Below, piece after piece: positions 27,658 through 41,335 of a DNA stretch of 55,119 nucleotides; position 1 is the first letter of the stretch; each line of letters begins with the position of its first letter. This DNA is from Lewinellaceae bacterium. Its GTDB lineage: Bacteria > Bacteroidota > Bacteroidia > Chitinophagales > Saprospiraceae. Below the pieces are notes generated by a model. That model made no database searches and was not told where the DNA came from. It saw only the letters and a program-made list of their open reading frames with translations. Position numbers and translations under genes: made by a program. Location of the stretch: assembly GCA_947476195.1 (NCBI GenBank), contig CANJPT010000015.1, positions 1-55,119 on the forward strand, read 5' to 3'.

Positions 27658-30600
27658 ATGCAAAAGCAATTTTTGATCGGTCTTGTCCTGATTTTCCAGA
27701 CAGGAAATCTGTTTGCCCAGCAACTGCTGACAGCGCCCTACCAATGGTCGCCCGAGCAGGAGACCAGCCTACATGATCTTCCTGGTATTACCCTACAAAA
27801 ACCAGAGCTCTGCAATCGACAGGCTATTATTGATGATTATAACAATGTTTACCTCGCTTCGGCGATTTCAAGCGCTCAACTTGCATGGACCGGAAGTGTG
27901 GCCACTTGTACACCAGGTACCACTTCAGACCTGGCTGAAACCTACACACTCAATCGGATAAACTATTTCCGAAAACTGGTTGGTGTGCCCAACAATATGG
28001 TCCTGGACCAAAATGCCTATGAGGCCAATTGCCAGGCGGCGGCCTTGATCATGGATGCCAATGATAACCTTAGCCACTCCCCACCCAACAACTGGACCTG
28101 CTGGACACAAGCCGGCAGCAACGGGGCCGGCAGCTCCAATCTTGCTTTAGGTGCGCATGCTTCAGGCGCTATCTCCTTGTACATGATAGATCCGGGAACG
28201 GGAAACGAACCTGCCGGTCACCGGCGATGGATATTAAATTCGCGGGCCTCTAAATTTGGAACAGGCTCAAGCAGCTCAACAGCAGCCAATGCCCTCTTTG
28301 TTTTTGGCCCTTCGGTTGTTCCTCCCAGTTTGCCCTCTTTTATAGCCTATCCCAGCGAAGGATTTTTCCCCAGATCCCTTATGCCTACCCGATGGTCCTT
28401 TGGGATTCCCGGCGGTAATTTTTCAACTGCTTTGGTAGTGGTCAAAGATGAGGTCGGAGCAACGGTCGGCATCACTCAGCATCCTTACCAGGTCGGTTAT
28501 GGTGACAATACCCTTACCTGGGAAATGCCAGGCTCCGCGGCCAGTTTTGCCAATAAGGAGGACGTTGTATACACGGTCACTGTATCCGGTATTACCAATG
28601 CCCTGGCTACCACTTATACCTATAAAGTGGTGCTTATCTATGAAGAGACGCCCACTGTTTTATTCACCAAAACGGACCCTACCTGCGAAAACAATGGTTC
28701 TGTTTCCGCATCTTTCTCAGCAGGTGCTAAATCCTATGCCTGGAGCAATGGACTATCTACTGCTGGCATTTCCAATGTATTGCCCGGAACCTATACCGTT
28801 ACCATCACGGACAAAAGTGATTGCACCACCGTTGCCACCGTAGAACTTCTGGATAACTCCGTTGTGGTAATTGCGCCAGGCGATGCAAGTACCGCAACGG
28901 TCGTTAATTGTGCTGGAAACATTCAATTAAACCTAAGTACTACTGGTGCAACTAATCTTGGAACGAATCAAATCGTGGGCTGGTGGTTTACCCAGGATGC
29001 ACCGGCTTCGAATGCAATTGCCGATCAGGCGACTTTGAATACCGCACTGGCTGGAGCTGCCGTGAATCCGGCCATTGTGACGCCCGGCCTAAGTAGTTTT
29101 ATGTTCAAATCAGGCAGCGGCACTACGCTATCCAAAGCCTTTACCTGCGGCGCACAACTGGATCCAAATAAGACGTATTACGCCACGCCATTTGTGACCC
29201 AGAATGATTCTCCTGCGCCTATCAGTTATACCAATAACACCACCGCCGGCAACATTCCGATCAATGATGTAAATGCCGGAATCGCAGGAAAAACGGAAAT
29301 TCCGGTCAAAGTATGGCAGGTGCCCACCAGTGCAAACCTGAAAAAAGTTTGTGTTCAGATCACCTATGGAGGTTTTTGCACCCTGAACGATCTGGACATA
29401 AAAATCCGGGACCCATTTGGTACGGAGATCTATCTGACATCTTTTTTTCCGGGTTTTGCGAATGGAACCGCCGGGTTTAATGCTTGTTACGTAGATGATA
29501 TGTCGGGCGTAAATGTTTGGGATGGTTGCAATGGAAATTGTTACACAGGGCTGATCAACAGTGAAACCAATTTTAACCCCTTCAAAAGTATTGACCCAAA
29601 TGGAACATGGACTTTGATCGTAACCGATGATTTTAACCAGGGTTTTAAACCCAATTTTATCAAGGCAAGCTTTGAATTTGACGAAGCATCCTATGCCATT
29701 AATTTCCCGGAAGTAGCTTTTAGCAACTGTGTCATGGGCGACCCGGTTCATTTTTCCTGTGCTGAAACCAATGCACCGGCCACTCCGATTATTTCCGGAC
29801 AAACGCAATTTTGCAGCGATGTAGCAGGGACACTTTCTGTGGGGGCAGGTTATCAAACCTACCTTTGGAACAATGGACAAACCTCGACTTCTATCCAGAT
29901 ACAACAAGCGGGGACTTACACGGTAACAGTTTCAAACGCAGTGGGCTGCACTGCTTCAAGCTCTACCAACGTTCAGATGGGTACTATACCCAGCACCAGT
30001 ATTAGCGGTAATACAGAAATTTGCCAAGGTCAACCCACCAGTCTGGATGCTGGCGCAGGATTTAGTGCCTATGCCTGGAGCAATGGACAAACAACCCGCA
30101 ATATTTCGGTTCAAAATGCCGGGACGTACACGGTTACGATTACCAATGCAAGTACTTGTACGAATACTGCCACGGTTGCGGTCAATATCATAAATGTACC
30201 CAGCCCATCCATTTCCGGAGACTTGAGTTTTTGTCCCGGAGTAAACACGACCCTAAGCGCTCCTGCCGGCTTTTCGGCTTACCAATGGAGCACCAATCAA
30301 AACACACCAAGTATTCAGGTACAACAAGCCGGATCGTATCAGGTAACCGTCACCAATAACCAGGGCTGTACGGCTACGAATGTGGTAATGGTCAGCGTAC
30401 TTCCTGCGCCTACAGTCAATATTTCAGGCATCCAGAGTTTTTGTGAAGGGGCTAGCGCAACACTTATTTCCACAGCAGGCTTTTCTGCCTATACCTGGAG
30501 CACCGGCCAAACCACGCAGAATATTACGGTCATGCAAGGGGGAATGTATACTGTTACGGTTGTCAATGCCCAGGGTTGCACAGGCACCGCCAATCGAAAC

Positions 30601-31515
30601 ATTACGGTCAATCCACACCCTACCACGAGTATTAGTGGAAATTTAGCCTTTTGTGCAGGGCAAACCACCCTACTGAGTGCCAGTCAGGGACTGAGCGGCT
30701 ACACCTGGAACACCGGCCAGACCACACAAAACATTACAGTCAGCCAAGGCGGAACCTATTCCGTTACCGTGGTCAATGCCCAGGGTTGTACTGGCACCGC
30801 CAGTCAAAACATTGCGGTTAACCCACTTCCTACCGCGAGTATTAATGGGAATCTATCCTTTTGCTTGGGTAAATCCACGGTGCTGACGGCCAATCAGGGA
30901 CTAAGCACTTATGCCTGGAATACCGGAGAAACCACCAATGCGATCACGGTTACAACTGCCGGAACCTATTCAACCACCGTTACAAACAGTTTTGGATGTA
31001 CCGATGATGCCTCTGCAAATGTATCAACAGTAGCAAACCCTACGGTTGATCTGGGACCAGACAAGGTCATTGTGCAAGGACAACAAATTGTCCTGAATGC
31101 CTCCGGTCCAGGCCTGACTTACTTTTGGTCAACCGGGGCGACCACCGGAACCCTGACGGTACAACTCATGGGAACCTATTCGGTTACGGTAACGAATGCC
31201 GCCGGTTGCACCGCGACCGATGATATTAAAGTAGAGGTAACCAGTGATGCAAGCGAACCGGAATCGGCATTTAAAATTGAAGTTTTCCCGAATCCTGCGG
31301 TAGAATCCCTGCAATTCAGGTCCAATGGATTTGATGTTACGGGGCTGATCCTGGAGAATATTCAGGGTAAAGTGCTCTTGAATAAGAGCGATTTTATCTC
31401 CAAAGACACCTGGCAAAAACTGGACATCAGGCAGCTACCGGTCGGGACCTATTTTCTGATTCTGCGCGGGACGCAGTATACCAGTACTGTTAAGTTTGTG
31501 AAGGCGGGACTTTAG
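27658..31515 (+). CDS. Secreted CAP-domain protein with seven 70-residue modules and a T9SS type A tail
   Basis: The 1285-residue protein starts at ATG 27658 (MQKQFLIGLVLIFQTGNLFAQ, signal peptide). Residues about 90-245 form a CAP/SCP-like domain with the motifs NRINYFRKLVG and GHRRWILNSR. A SprB-like module (CENNGSVSASFSAG...WSNG) lies near 340-400, and residues about 515-680 resemble a proprotein-convertase P-domain (LDIKIRDPFGTE, NGTWTLIVTDDF). Seven Ig/PKD-like modules of exactly 70 codons follow (29791-31260), each of the form S-I-S-G, F-C, G-x-x-x-Y-x-W-S-x-G-Q-T-T and GTYTVTVTN. The last 85 residues are a type A sorting domain (IEVFPNPAVESLQF, PVGTYFLILRG). It is therefore a PorU/PorV client, anchored or released at the surface; CAP domains often bind lipids or act as adhesins or proteases. 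Confidence 0.85.
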   Translation: MQKQFLIGLVLIFQTGNLFAQQLLTAPYQWSPEQETSLHDLPGITLQKPELCNRQAIIDDYNNVYLASAISSAQLAWTGSVATCTPGTTSDLAETYTLNRINYFRKLVGVPNNMVLDQNAYEANCQAAALIMDANDNLSHSPPNNWTCWTQAGSNGAGSSNLALGAHASGAISLYMIDPGTGNEPAGHRRWILNSRASKFGTGSSSSTAANALFVFGPSVVPPSLPSFIAYPSEGFFPRSLMPTRWSFGIPGGNFSTALVVVKDEVGATVGITQHPYQVGYGDNTLTWEMPGSAASFANKEDVVYTVTVSGITNALATTYTYKVVLIYEETPTVLFTKTDPTCENNGSVSASFSAGAKSYAWSNGLSTAGISNVLPGTYTVTITDKSDCTTVATVELLDNSVVVIAPGDASTATVVNCAGNIQLNLSTTGATNLGTNQIVGWWFTQDAPASNAIADQATLNTALAGAAVNPAIVTPGLSSFMFKSGSGTTLSKAFTCGAQLDPNKTYYATPFVTQNDSPAPISYTNNTTAGNIPINDVNAGIAGKTEIPVKVWQVPTSANLKKVCVQITYGGFCTLNDLDIKIRDPFGTEIYLTSFFPGFANGTAGFNACYVDDMSGVNVWDGCNGNCYTGLINSETNFNPFKSIDPNGTWTLIVTDDFNQGFKPNFIKASFEFDEASYAINFPEVAFSNCVMGDPVHFSCAETNAPATPIISGQTQFCSDVAGTLSVGAGYQTYLWNNGQTSTSIQIQQAGTYTVTVSNAVGCTASSSTNVQMGTIPSTSISGNTEICQGQPTSLDAGAGFSAYAWSNGQTTRNISVQNAGTYTVTITNASTCTNTATVAVNIINVPSPSISGDLSFCPGVNTTLSAPAGFSAYQWSTNQNTPSIQVQQAGSYQVTVTNNQGCTATNVVMVSVLPAPTVNISGIQSFCEGASATLISTAGFSAYTWSTGQTTQNITVMQGGMYTVTVVNAQGCTGTANRNITVNPHPTTSISGNLAFCAGQTTLLSASQGLSGYTWNTGQTTQNITVSQGGTYSVTVVNAQGCTGTASQNIAVNPLPTASINGNLSFCLGKSTVLTANQGLSTYAWNTGETTNAITVTTAGTYSTTVTNSFGCTDDASANVSTVANPTVDLGPDKVIVQGQQIVLNASGPGLTYFWSTGATTGTLTVQLMGTYSVTVTNAAGCTATDDIKVEVTSDASEPESAFKIEVFPNPAVESLQFRSNGFDVTGLILENIQGKVLLNKSDFISKDTWQKLDIRQLPVGTYFLILRGTQYTSTVKFVKAGL
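29791..31260 (+). repeat. Seven tandem 210-nt modules inside the CAP-domain gene
   Basis: The codons for the module anchor I-S-G (or its equivalent) start at 29791, 30001, 30211, 30421, 30631, 30841 and, diverged, 31051: every step is exactly 210 nt. Modules at 30421 and 30631 are the most alike at DNA level (for example the shared ACCACGCAGAATATTACGGT-type and GTCAATGCCCAGGGTTG stretches). Confidence 0.9.
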
Positions 31516-39250: not shown

Positions 39251-41335
39251 ATGCCTGCACCAGATTTCTCCAGGATCAAATTCGACCCGACGCTGCGGAA
39301 TGCAGAATACGGAATGCAGAATACGGAATCTACGCAAATTCCGCATTCCGCATTCCGTATTCCATATTCCGCTGGTCTTCCCCCCTACCTCGGCGGCCCC
39401 TATTCCACCATGTACCTCACCCAGCCCTGGACCATCCGGCAGTACGCAGGGTTTTCCACGGCTGAAGCGAGCAACGCTTTTTACCGCCGCAACCTGGCCG
39501 CCGGACAAAAAGGCCTGAGCGTAGCTTTCGACTTAGCTACGCACCGGGGCTATGATTCCGACCACCCCCGGGTGGAAGGCGATGTGGGCAAAGCTGGGGT
39601 GGCCATCGATTCTGTGGAGGATATGAAAGTCCTTTTTGATCAGATCCCGTTGGGAGAAATGTCCGTGTCCATGACCATGAACGGGGCCGTCATTCCCATT
39701 ATGGCGTTTTACATCGTAGCGGCAGAAGAACAAGGCGTTCCGCCGGAAAAATTATCTGGTACGATCCAGAACGACATTTTAAAAGAATTCATGGTGCGCA
39801 ACACCTACATCTACCCGCCTGGGCCGAGCATGCGCATCATCAGTGATATTTTCTCCTACTGCGCCGGACACATGCCGAAGTTCAACTCCATCAGCATTTC
39901 CGGCTACCACATGCACGAAGCGGGTGCGCCGGCGGAGATCGAGCTGGCCTACACCCTCGCCGACGGACTGGAATACATCCGCGCGGGTATCGCCTCCGGA
40001 TTGGACATTGACGAATTTGCGCCACGGCTTTCCTTCTTTTGGGGCATCGGGATGAATCATTTTACAGAGATCGCCAAGCTTCGCGCCGGGCGGATGCTCT
40101 GGGCAAAACTGGTGAAGCAGTTCAATCCGAAAAGCAACAAATCGCTCATGCTGCGCACCCACTGCCAGACTTCCGGCTGGAGCCTTACAGAGCAGGACCC
40201 ATTCAATAACGTGGCACGCACCTGCGTCGAAGCCATGTCGGCGGTATTAGGCGGAACGCAGAGTTTGCACACCAACTCTTTCGACGAGGCCATGGCTTTG
40301 CCGACCGATTTTTCGGCCAAAATTGCCCGCGACACCCAGATCTTTATCCAGAAAGAAACGGACGTCACCCGGGCCATCGATCCCTGGGCGGGCTCTCATT
40401 TTGTAGAACAACGTACGGCAGAACTGGTAGAAAAAGCCTGGGCCCTGATGCAGGAAGTGGAAGAACTGGGCGGCATGGCCAAGGCCATCGAACAGGGCCT
40501 GCCAAAACTCCGCATTGAAGAAGCAGCCGCTAAAAAGCAGGCTGGCATTGATTCTGGCAAGGAAAAGATCGTCGGGGTCAACGTTTTTCAAGTCGCTGAC
40601 AACGAACGATTTGAAATTCTAGAGGTAGACAATTCCGCGGTGCGGGAAGGTCAGATCCGACGCTTACAATCCCTGAGAAAAAACCGGGATGAAGCAGCTG
40701 TTGCGGCGGCTTTATCCGCTGTAGAACAAGCTACGAAAGACGGAGCCAACCTTCTGGAAGCCTCCATCCACGCCGCCCGCGTCCGGGCCACCCTGGGCGA
40801 AATCTCCTCGGCCATGGAAAAGGCATTTGGCCGCTATGTGGCTACCACCAAATCCATTTCAGGCGTTTACGCTGCTAACATGAGCAAAAACGAAGACTTC
40901 GAGCATGCCCAACATCTGGCGGATGAATTCGCCGAGCTGGAAGGTCGTCGCCCGCGCATCATGGTCGCCAAATTAGGCCAGGACGGCCACGACCGGGGCG
41001 CCAAGATCATCGCCACAGCCTTCGCAGATCTTGGCTTTGACGTAGATATTGGACCTTTGTTCCAAACACCCGCTGAGGCGGCCCGTCAAGCTGTGGAAAA
41101 CGATGTGCATATCCTCGGAATTTCTTCTCTGGCAGCAGGACACAAAACATTGGTCCCCCAAACCATTGCCGAATTGGAGAAACTGGGTCGCGGGGATATT
41201 TTGGTAGTCGTGGGTGGGGTTATCCCGCAGCAGGACTATGAATTCCTGCGGAAGGCAGGCGCCGCGGCCATTTTTGGGCCGGGGACTGTGGTGGCGAAAG
41301 CTGCACAGGAGTTGTTGGGGGTTTTGATGGGGTAA
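39251..41335 (+). CDS. scpA: Methylmalonyl-CoA mutase, large (catalytic) subunit
   Basis: This adenosylcobalamin enzyme interconverts succinyl-CoA and methylmalonyl-CoA in propionate metabolism. Starting at ATG 39251 ([16 protein letters not shown]) it has 694 residues. The catalytic barrel is clear: [58 protein letters not shown] and [20 protein letters not shown]. The C-terminal cobalamin domain has [12 protein letters not shown] with the cobalt-binding His, then [10 protein letters not shown] and [10 protein letters not shown]. The small subunit is not adjacent. Two oddities: a 78-bp palindromic element (39295-39372) is translated as residues about 16-41, and the conserved Arg of TMYxxRPWTIRQ is Gln (codon 39422-39424). 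Gene symbol is given by function; mutB or mcmA1 are equally used. Confidence 0.92.
39295..39372. repeat. Palindromic element in frame within the mutase gene
   Basis: Two 35-nt arms built of GCGGAAT/ACGGAAT words (39295-39329) and their near reverse complement (39338-39372) enclose an 8-nt loop. The element is exactly 78 nt (26 codons), has no stop in the mutase frame, and encodes [19 protein letters not shown]-like sequence that has no counterpart in other mutases I know. Confidence 0.85.

Follow-up and report, generated by a model that had tools for sequence, protein, structure and literature searches.

REP/RAYT elements and MITEs are small palindromes that lie between genes, in some cases within them, and are believed to rely on a partner gene. 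Palindromes that are translated as part of a protein are best known from Rickettsia, whose palindromic elements of about 150 bp fall into defined families (PMC10969869), recur in the genome and stand in frame in metabolic genes; the enzymes concerned reportedly keep their activity (PMC10969869, PMC6649704). In the intervening sequence (IVS) of the Coxiella burnetii 23S rRNA, an S23p ORF is enclosed by a stem-forming pair of terminal inverted repeats, and tandem GACAGAT heptamers are found ahead of this ORF (PMC4990558). Tandem units of 7 nt, the TAACTGA heptamers, have also been described in Beggiatoaceae and in some Bacteroidetes; these repeats are direct and mostly located just upstream of start codons, and the accessible part of that report names no partner gene (PMC4679880). 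Finally, the protein family PF05635 resembles Avd of diversity-generating retroelements (PMC10053308). Both in-frame palindromes (in Rickettsia; PMC10969869, PMC6649704) and S23p genes between inverted repeats in 23S rRNA (PMC4990558) are already known. Among titles and abstract openings, with most subscription papers outside the scope, we found no account of cassettes in which inverted short-unit arrays frame a PF05635 gene between protein genes, or of the gene-less arrays of such cassettes in enzymes.

The window analysed here, a 55,119-nt stretch of DNA from a Lewinellaceae bacterium, carries on its forward strand a gene for the large subunit of methylmalonyl-CoA mutase at 39251-41335 (694 amino acids from the ATG at 39251; Pfam PF01642 with E 4.9e-222 plus a B12-binding domain, NCBIfam NF006944 with 1256 bits, PDB 1req). 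As the first-pass annotation had noticed, this ORF reads without a stop codon through a 78-nt palindrome at 39295-39372. Its 5' arm (39295-39329) consists of heptamers of the GCGGAAT/GCAGAAT/ACGGAAT type and is the G-rich strand, the loop of 8 nt occupies 39330-39337, and the 3' arm (39338-39372) is made of five ATTCCNN heptamers and is 86% complementary to the 5' arm. The earlier description of two 35-nt arms of GGAAT words around an 8-nt loop was right as to arms and loop, but both arms are tandem heptamers in mirror image, with a period of 7/14, and not one unique palindromic word. Similarly, the element does have the length of 26 codons, yet its first nucleotide is the third base of Leu15, counting from the ATG at 39251, so that it is not codon-aligned; the variable linker codons that it encodes number 24 (39299-39370). 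All six matches to the heptamer pattern in the window lie inside the palindrome, against 0.01 expected from shuffles. A 180-nt RNA spanning it, with the terminal inverted repeats predicted to form a stem, folds at -55.7 kcal/mol compared with -35.4 +/- 3.5 kcal/mol for shuffles (z -5.75), and none of the 200 shuffled RNAs folded as stably. Phage and plasmid collections searched with a 98-nt query gave no match. Elsewhere in the window, a 210-nt unit is tandemly repeated, in about two copies, at 30489-30935.

Alignment of the protein to solved mutases starts at residue 40, which is the end of the palindrome. Relative to its nearest relative, G010, the core of the mutase has a dN of 0.044 and a dS of 1.03, and the gene carrying the palindrome is, on sequence grounds, under purifying selection. 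The next match to the mutase in the source genome, among the matches listed, covers residues 165-530 only, at 33% identity. We assume that the gene yields a functional mutase in which 24 linker residues derive from the repeat, and no gain of function is proposed. Short arrays are not rare in this genome: in 755 kb of it, arrays with a period of 7, 8 or 10 occupy 12 loci, the one in the window included (the scan also counted six of period 9 and three of period 12). An ordinary two-part tandem repeat unrelated to any element, or a fault of assembly, is nonetheless a very improbable account of the locus, given that one block-shuffled copy of the genome yields no arrays, that the palindrome is far outside the shuffles in both pattern matches and fold energy, that the frame is kept and that relatives have arrays at the same linker.

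We lean, if narrowly, towards the reading that the mutase palindrome is a gene-less array of a repeat family associated with PF05635 cassettes, of which C77 in the same genome is the gene-carrying member, and that it has been kept in frame in a tolerant linker. Palindromes of this word type had been said to be normally intergenic. In the source genome, the GGAATGC unit occurs at two places besides the mutase, C26 and C77, both between genes. At C26 (L006:1495-1640) it forms a degenerate hairpin between the end of an EF-Tu gene and tRNA-Trp. At C77 (1453-2049), two GGAATGC arrays of opposite orientation enclose a gene for a four-helix-bundle protein of PF05635/TIGR02436 ("23S rRNA intervening-sequence protein"), the family to which, from its name, S23p presumably belongs. 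The cassette is flanked by a BrkB-family gene (YihY) and then an AAA/MoxR-like gene, and in all nine relatives showing both genes the junction is without it; five of these have a short spacer (72-117 nt including gene ends), one has 243 nt and three have other ORFs. The YihY-MoxR junction (L015 / C77:1451-2085) may be an insertion hot spot, as G021 has a CYTH-like ORF where the source genome has the PF05635 cassette, and G007 and G009 each have a transposase-like one (ORFs named by eye).

Across the genus, six of 41 genomes contain the GGAATGC unit (G005 with 55 matches, G014 with 25, G023 with 7, the source genome with 6, and G022 and G025 with 1 each), and a search of the 41 genomes with the palindrome DNA gave no other mutase locus among the matches listed. 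At the four GGAATGC places read in G005 and G014 (L203-L206), the unit makes up hairpins that hold no gene and whose loops, judged by eye, measure roughly 25-75 nt. Among 86 PF05635 arm pairs, C77 alone clearly has GGAATGC arms, and none were seen at the PF05635 loci examined in G005 (four of five), G014 (six of seven) and G023 (eight of eight). That the relatives richest in the unit have no GGAATGC cassette among these loci argues against a simple master-copy story. The restriction of the unit to six genomes, together with the fact that the C77 protein is without a near relative that carries it, also speaks against the reading we favor. As a separate candidate, GGAATGC arrays at C306 of G023 were considered as cassette ends around a 465-aa ORF and rejected, because the arrays are co-oriented and the ORF has no Pfam match.

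The association of PF05635 genes with mirror-image arrays extends well beyond C77. Of 99 PF05635 loci analysed across the genus, 86 have inverted arrays of short units (82 of 94 in one set and four of five in another), the loci having been chosen mostly by score, not by random draw, from 196 matches in 41 genomes. Controls gave inverted arrays at none of 1120 places in mutase loci and at 6 of 5000 random places in the source genome (best score 31). The loci lacking them are L132, L133, L144, L153 (which has just 66 nt on one side), L188, L189, L193, L218, L226, L230, L232 and L243 in the larger set and L309 in the smaller. The source genome itself has seven PF05635 matches, five of them with inverted arrays, each of its own unit and that of L130 weak. 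In the 82 array-bearing loci of the larger set, the cassettes measure 471-903 nt and the period is 7 (37 loci), 8 (19), 9 (5), 10 (5), 6 (2) or 11 (2), or is weak (12). The two strands of the element ends are unlike, with G exceeding C in the 5' arm of 82 of the 86 arm pairs; the mutase palindrome, with its G-rich 5' arm, resembles the majority. Among PF05635 loci from other families of the class, 15 of 30 reach the score compared with none of 57 displaced places, the sample being one best locus per genome out of 122 genomes with a match. An Rfam scan of 12 PF05635 loci gave no match at the gathering score, so these 12 loci are not in rRNA genes visible to Rfam.

The repeat unit also tracks the protein. 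Array similarity follows protein similarity across 70 loci (Mantel r 0.45, reached in 0 of 2000 permutations). Among pairs of loci without related flanks, units are shared by four of five pairs at a protein score of 0.8 or more, by 25 of 81 at 0.6-0.8 and by 18 of 2141 below 0.4; this comparison disregarded flanks of less than 100 nt, which hence count as not related. Pairs with related flanks share units in 12 of 12 cases at 0.8 or more and in 11 of 14 at 0.6-0.8. Such co-variation is what would be expected if ends and gene moved together, and common descent of whole loci accounts for part of it.

Arrays without a gene show the same connection in part. Seven of the 12 solo arrays of the source genome match its PF05635 arms, which random arm sets from other genomes do in 8 of 5000 draws. 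The thresholds of the analysis were chosen after looking at the data, which counts against the favored reading. A second enzyme, the ADP-glyceromanno-heptose 6-epimerase HldD, also has a short-unit array translated in frame. In the source genome (G000) it is one of the 12 array loci, is found at C66 (L343:8173-8210) and consists of TCGTTCC heptamers forming an imperfect palindrome with the preceding stretch; no matching unit exists among that genome's five PF05635 arm pairs. The linker before WAGFKFFNVYGP has 26 residues in the source genome compared with 8-21 in 27 of the 28 other parsed loci, the exception being G023, whose linker of 25 residues also has an array. A strong period of 7 is seen in three of 29 HldD linkers (source genome, G022 and G023) versus one of 580 control windows. 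The unit is ACGGTGG in G023, as in the G023 cassette L141, and GAGGGT in G022; weak palindromy is seen in the HldD arrays of the source genome (score 10) and of G022 (score 8), both scored without a control set.

When the mutase and HldD linkers are taken together, four of seven arrays match a PF05635 cassette of the same genome, a number that relabelling among the 13 genomes that have at least three arm pairs reaches in 8 of 20000 trials. Of these four, the mutase arrays of the source genome and G022 match that genome alone, and the other two carry an ACCGTCC unit that is common to five genomes. The three with no same-genome match in the sampled cassettes are the mutase array of G010, in which four of seven PF05635 loci were sampled, and the HldD arrays of the source genome and G022. 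The three of seven linker arrays and five of 12 solo arrays left unmatched, and the sharing of one unit by five genomes in two of the four matches, weigh against the reading of the palindrome as a gene-less cassette array. Three further observations concern arrays and cassettes. In G022, at C47 (L307, L351), a PF05635 cassette directly follows hldD, which itself carries an in-frame heptamer array. At C7 of the source genome (L325:6373-6414), a heptamer array lies near the N-terminus of a 602-aa ORF of unsure start codon; judged by eye, this array seems to supply the hydrophobic portion of a lipoprotein-like leader. At C32 (L329:140-677), more than 500 nt are occupied by the 8-nt array GTCATTGG, which has 14 six-mers in common with the arms of the C81 PF05635 cassette.

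What the element did to the mutase can be judged from its relatives. In the genus, the protein begins with a sequence like MPAPDFSNIPF..LRP, followed by variable residues and then, in most, by AG(I/V/L)PP(F/Y)LGGPY. Between LR and AG there are 14-21 residues in the 26 relatives parsed, of 28 genus loci (L029 and L030 were not; L023, L042 and L043 were counted from the second LR), versus 24 in the source genome, and none of the 26 carries the palindrome-encoded residues. As the unit also recurs in the source genome outside the mutase, neither of the two findings that the first-pass annotation had named as refuting its view came about. Members of other Bacteroidota families have a longer, conserved linker (WxTxEGI...YTxxD...). 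The idea that the palindrome is a replacement of that linker was rejected, as it is present in none of the 26. Given that the long linker is absent from the genus and that the genus linker is already short and variable, the first-pass annotation's claim that the element replaces the usual linker does not stand; compared with the nearest relative, 8 codons have been gained, not 26. By comparison with its relatives, the palindrome sits in a segment of the mutase already short and free to vary.

This same linker holds heptamers in other genomes. Of 110 mutase loci, 10 could not be parsed; in the 100 parsed, a strong period-7 signal occurs in six linkers versus one of 2000 windows of the same genes, and there is no excess at periods 6, 8, 9 or 10. 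The units are GGAATGC in the source genome, GTAAATC in G010, CCGTCNN in G028, AATCCCC in G022 and CGCAATC in the Saprospiraceae MAG L048, and the sixth locus belongs to a Flavobacterium (L098). In the relatives, these arrays are direct repeats and not palindromic, which counts against the favored reading. It is further weakened in that no transposition was seen and that no clean empty site or target duplication can be defined in the mutase, the nearest relative G010 (dS about 1) having a different heptamer array at the palindrome site. These data would suit local growth, in which a pre-existing short heptamer array was lengthened and made palindromic in place by slippage and template switching (fold-back), the link to PF05635 being indirect or accidental. 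The different arrays in the same linker of G010, G022, G028 and L048, the gain of just 8 codons, the excess at period 7 with none at 6, 8 or 10, and the abundance of GGAATGC in G005 and G014, where no examined PF05635 locus has a cassette of this unit, are all in keeping with it. However, fold-back would copy the local unit, and the mutase unit is that of C77 and C26, not that of the G010 linker; the same-genome cassette matches of four of the seven linker arrays also count against it. We consider local growth unlikely, though it deserves to be taken seriously.

A very stable predicted hairpin 44 nt after the ORF start might also have been kept for regulation, lowering or timing mutase translation or serving as an RNase III target; RNase III cuts IVS hairpins with an S23p (PF05635) ORF (PMC4990558). 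This is quite improbable, because no other parsed mutase linker has so long a hairpin (palindrome score 20 in the window and 10 or 11 in five others; of 500 control windows, 3 score at least 10 and the best scores 17) and because a cut would separate the start codon from the sole whole large-subunit match listed for the source genome.

The palindrome as a gene-less array of the cassette family shares its unit with a PF05635 cassette of the same genome and has inverted arms with a G-rich 5' arm. Its origin might then be as follows. The cassette would be mobile, and its protein would recognise its own repeat, as DNA or as an RNA hairpin, and help copy arrays to new sites. By that route the mutase copy would have come from the C77 family, and it would have been retained because it fell in frame, was open in that frame and met a tolerant linker. 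An RNA step in the spread is thinkable, from the likeness to Avd and the RNase III cutting of IVS stems. More tentatively, and as a proposal that we would sooner doubt than assert, PF05635 proteins, so far known as Avd-like and from rRNA intervening sequences, may mark out a large class of very small mobile cassettes: the protein would recognise its own repeat and diverge together with it, mirror-image arrays would form the ends, and arrays without the gene would be scattered genome-wide, in frame in enzyme linkers too, where they would supply new protein sequence; the heptamer repeats of Bacteroidota would then be footprints of such cassettes, some outliving the gene. Such a class may tie together unexplained bacterial heptamer repeats, coding palindromes and the PF05635/S23p family, which has no known function. 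Every PF05635 gene, taken with its repeat, offers a testable protein-repeat binding pair, and in the enzyme linkers it can be seen how conserved proteins can acquire new residues from a repeat family.

Among the known systems, REP elements differ in that no GTAG/CGTC tag was seen by eye at the foot of the mutase stem, GTAG occurring on the minus strand only, in the loop. Unlike the partners of REP/RAYT and MITEs, the candidate partner here is a four-helix-bundle protein. No target duplication was seen in the comparison with relatives, none of which offers a close empty site for the mutase. The C77 protein, which matches PDB 2rld (E 5e-10), belongs to PF05635, the family that resembles Avd of diversity-generating retroelements. 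The 23S rRNA IVS shares a trait with C77, L131 and the mutase element, all of which have terminal inverted repeats with a predicted stem, and by analogy the heptamers ahead of the Coxiella S23p ORF would lend outside support to a link between PF05635 and repeats. In contrast to the IVS, the mutase element lies in the mutase ORF instead of a 23S rRNA gene and has an 8-nt loop with no PF05635 ORF inside, which the C77 cassette does contain; the genus cassettes have short-unit arrays on both sides, occur several per genome and are accompanied by gene-less arrays. Lastly, the first-pass annotation had likened the element to the Rickettsia palindromic elements, and the likeness is sound insofar as an in-frame repeat lies in an enzyme under selection, recurs in the genome and has a counterpart in a second enzyme, HldD; it would not by itself make the palindrome one of those elements. 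The mutase palindrome, like them, is in frame in a protein gene still under selection, with enzyme activity predicted. It differs from those elements of about 150 bp in its 78 nt, its mirror-image heptamers, its occurrence in Bacteroidota and a unit held in common with a PF05635 cassette, other loci having other units. The mutase palindrome would thus work like a Rickettsia palindromic element, a comparison that holds as an analogy.
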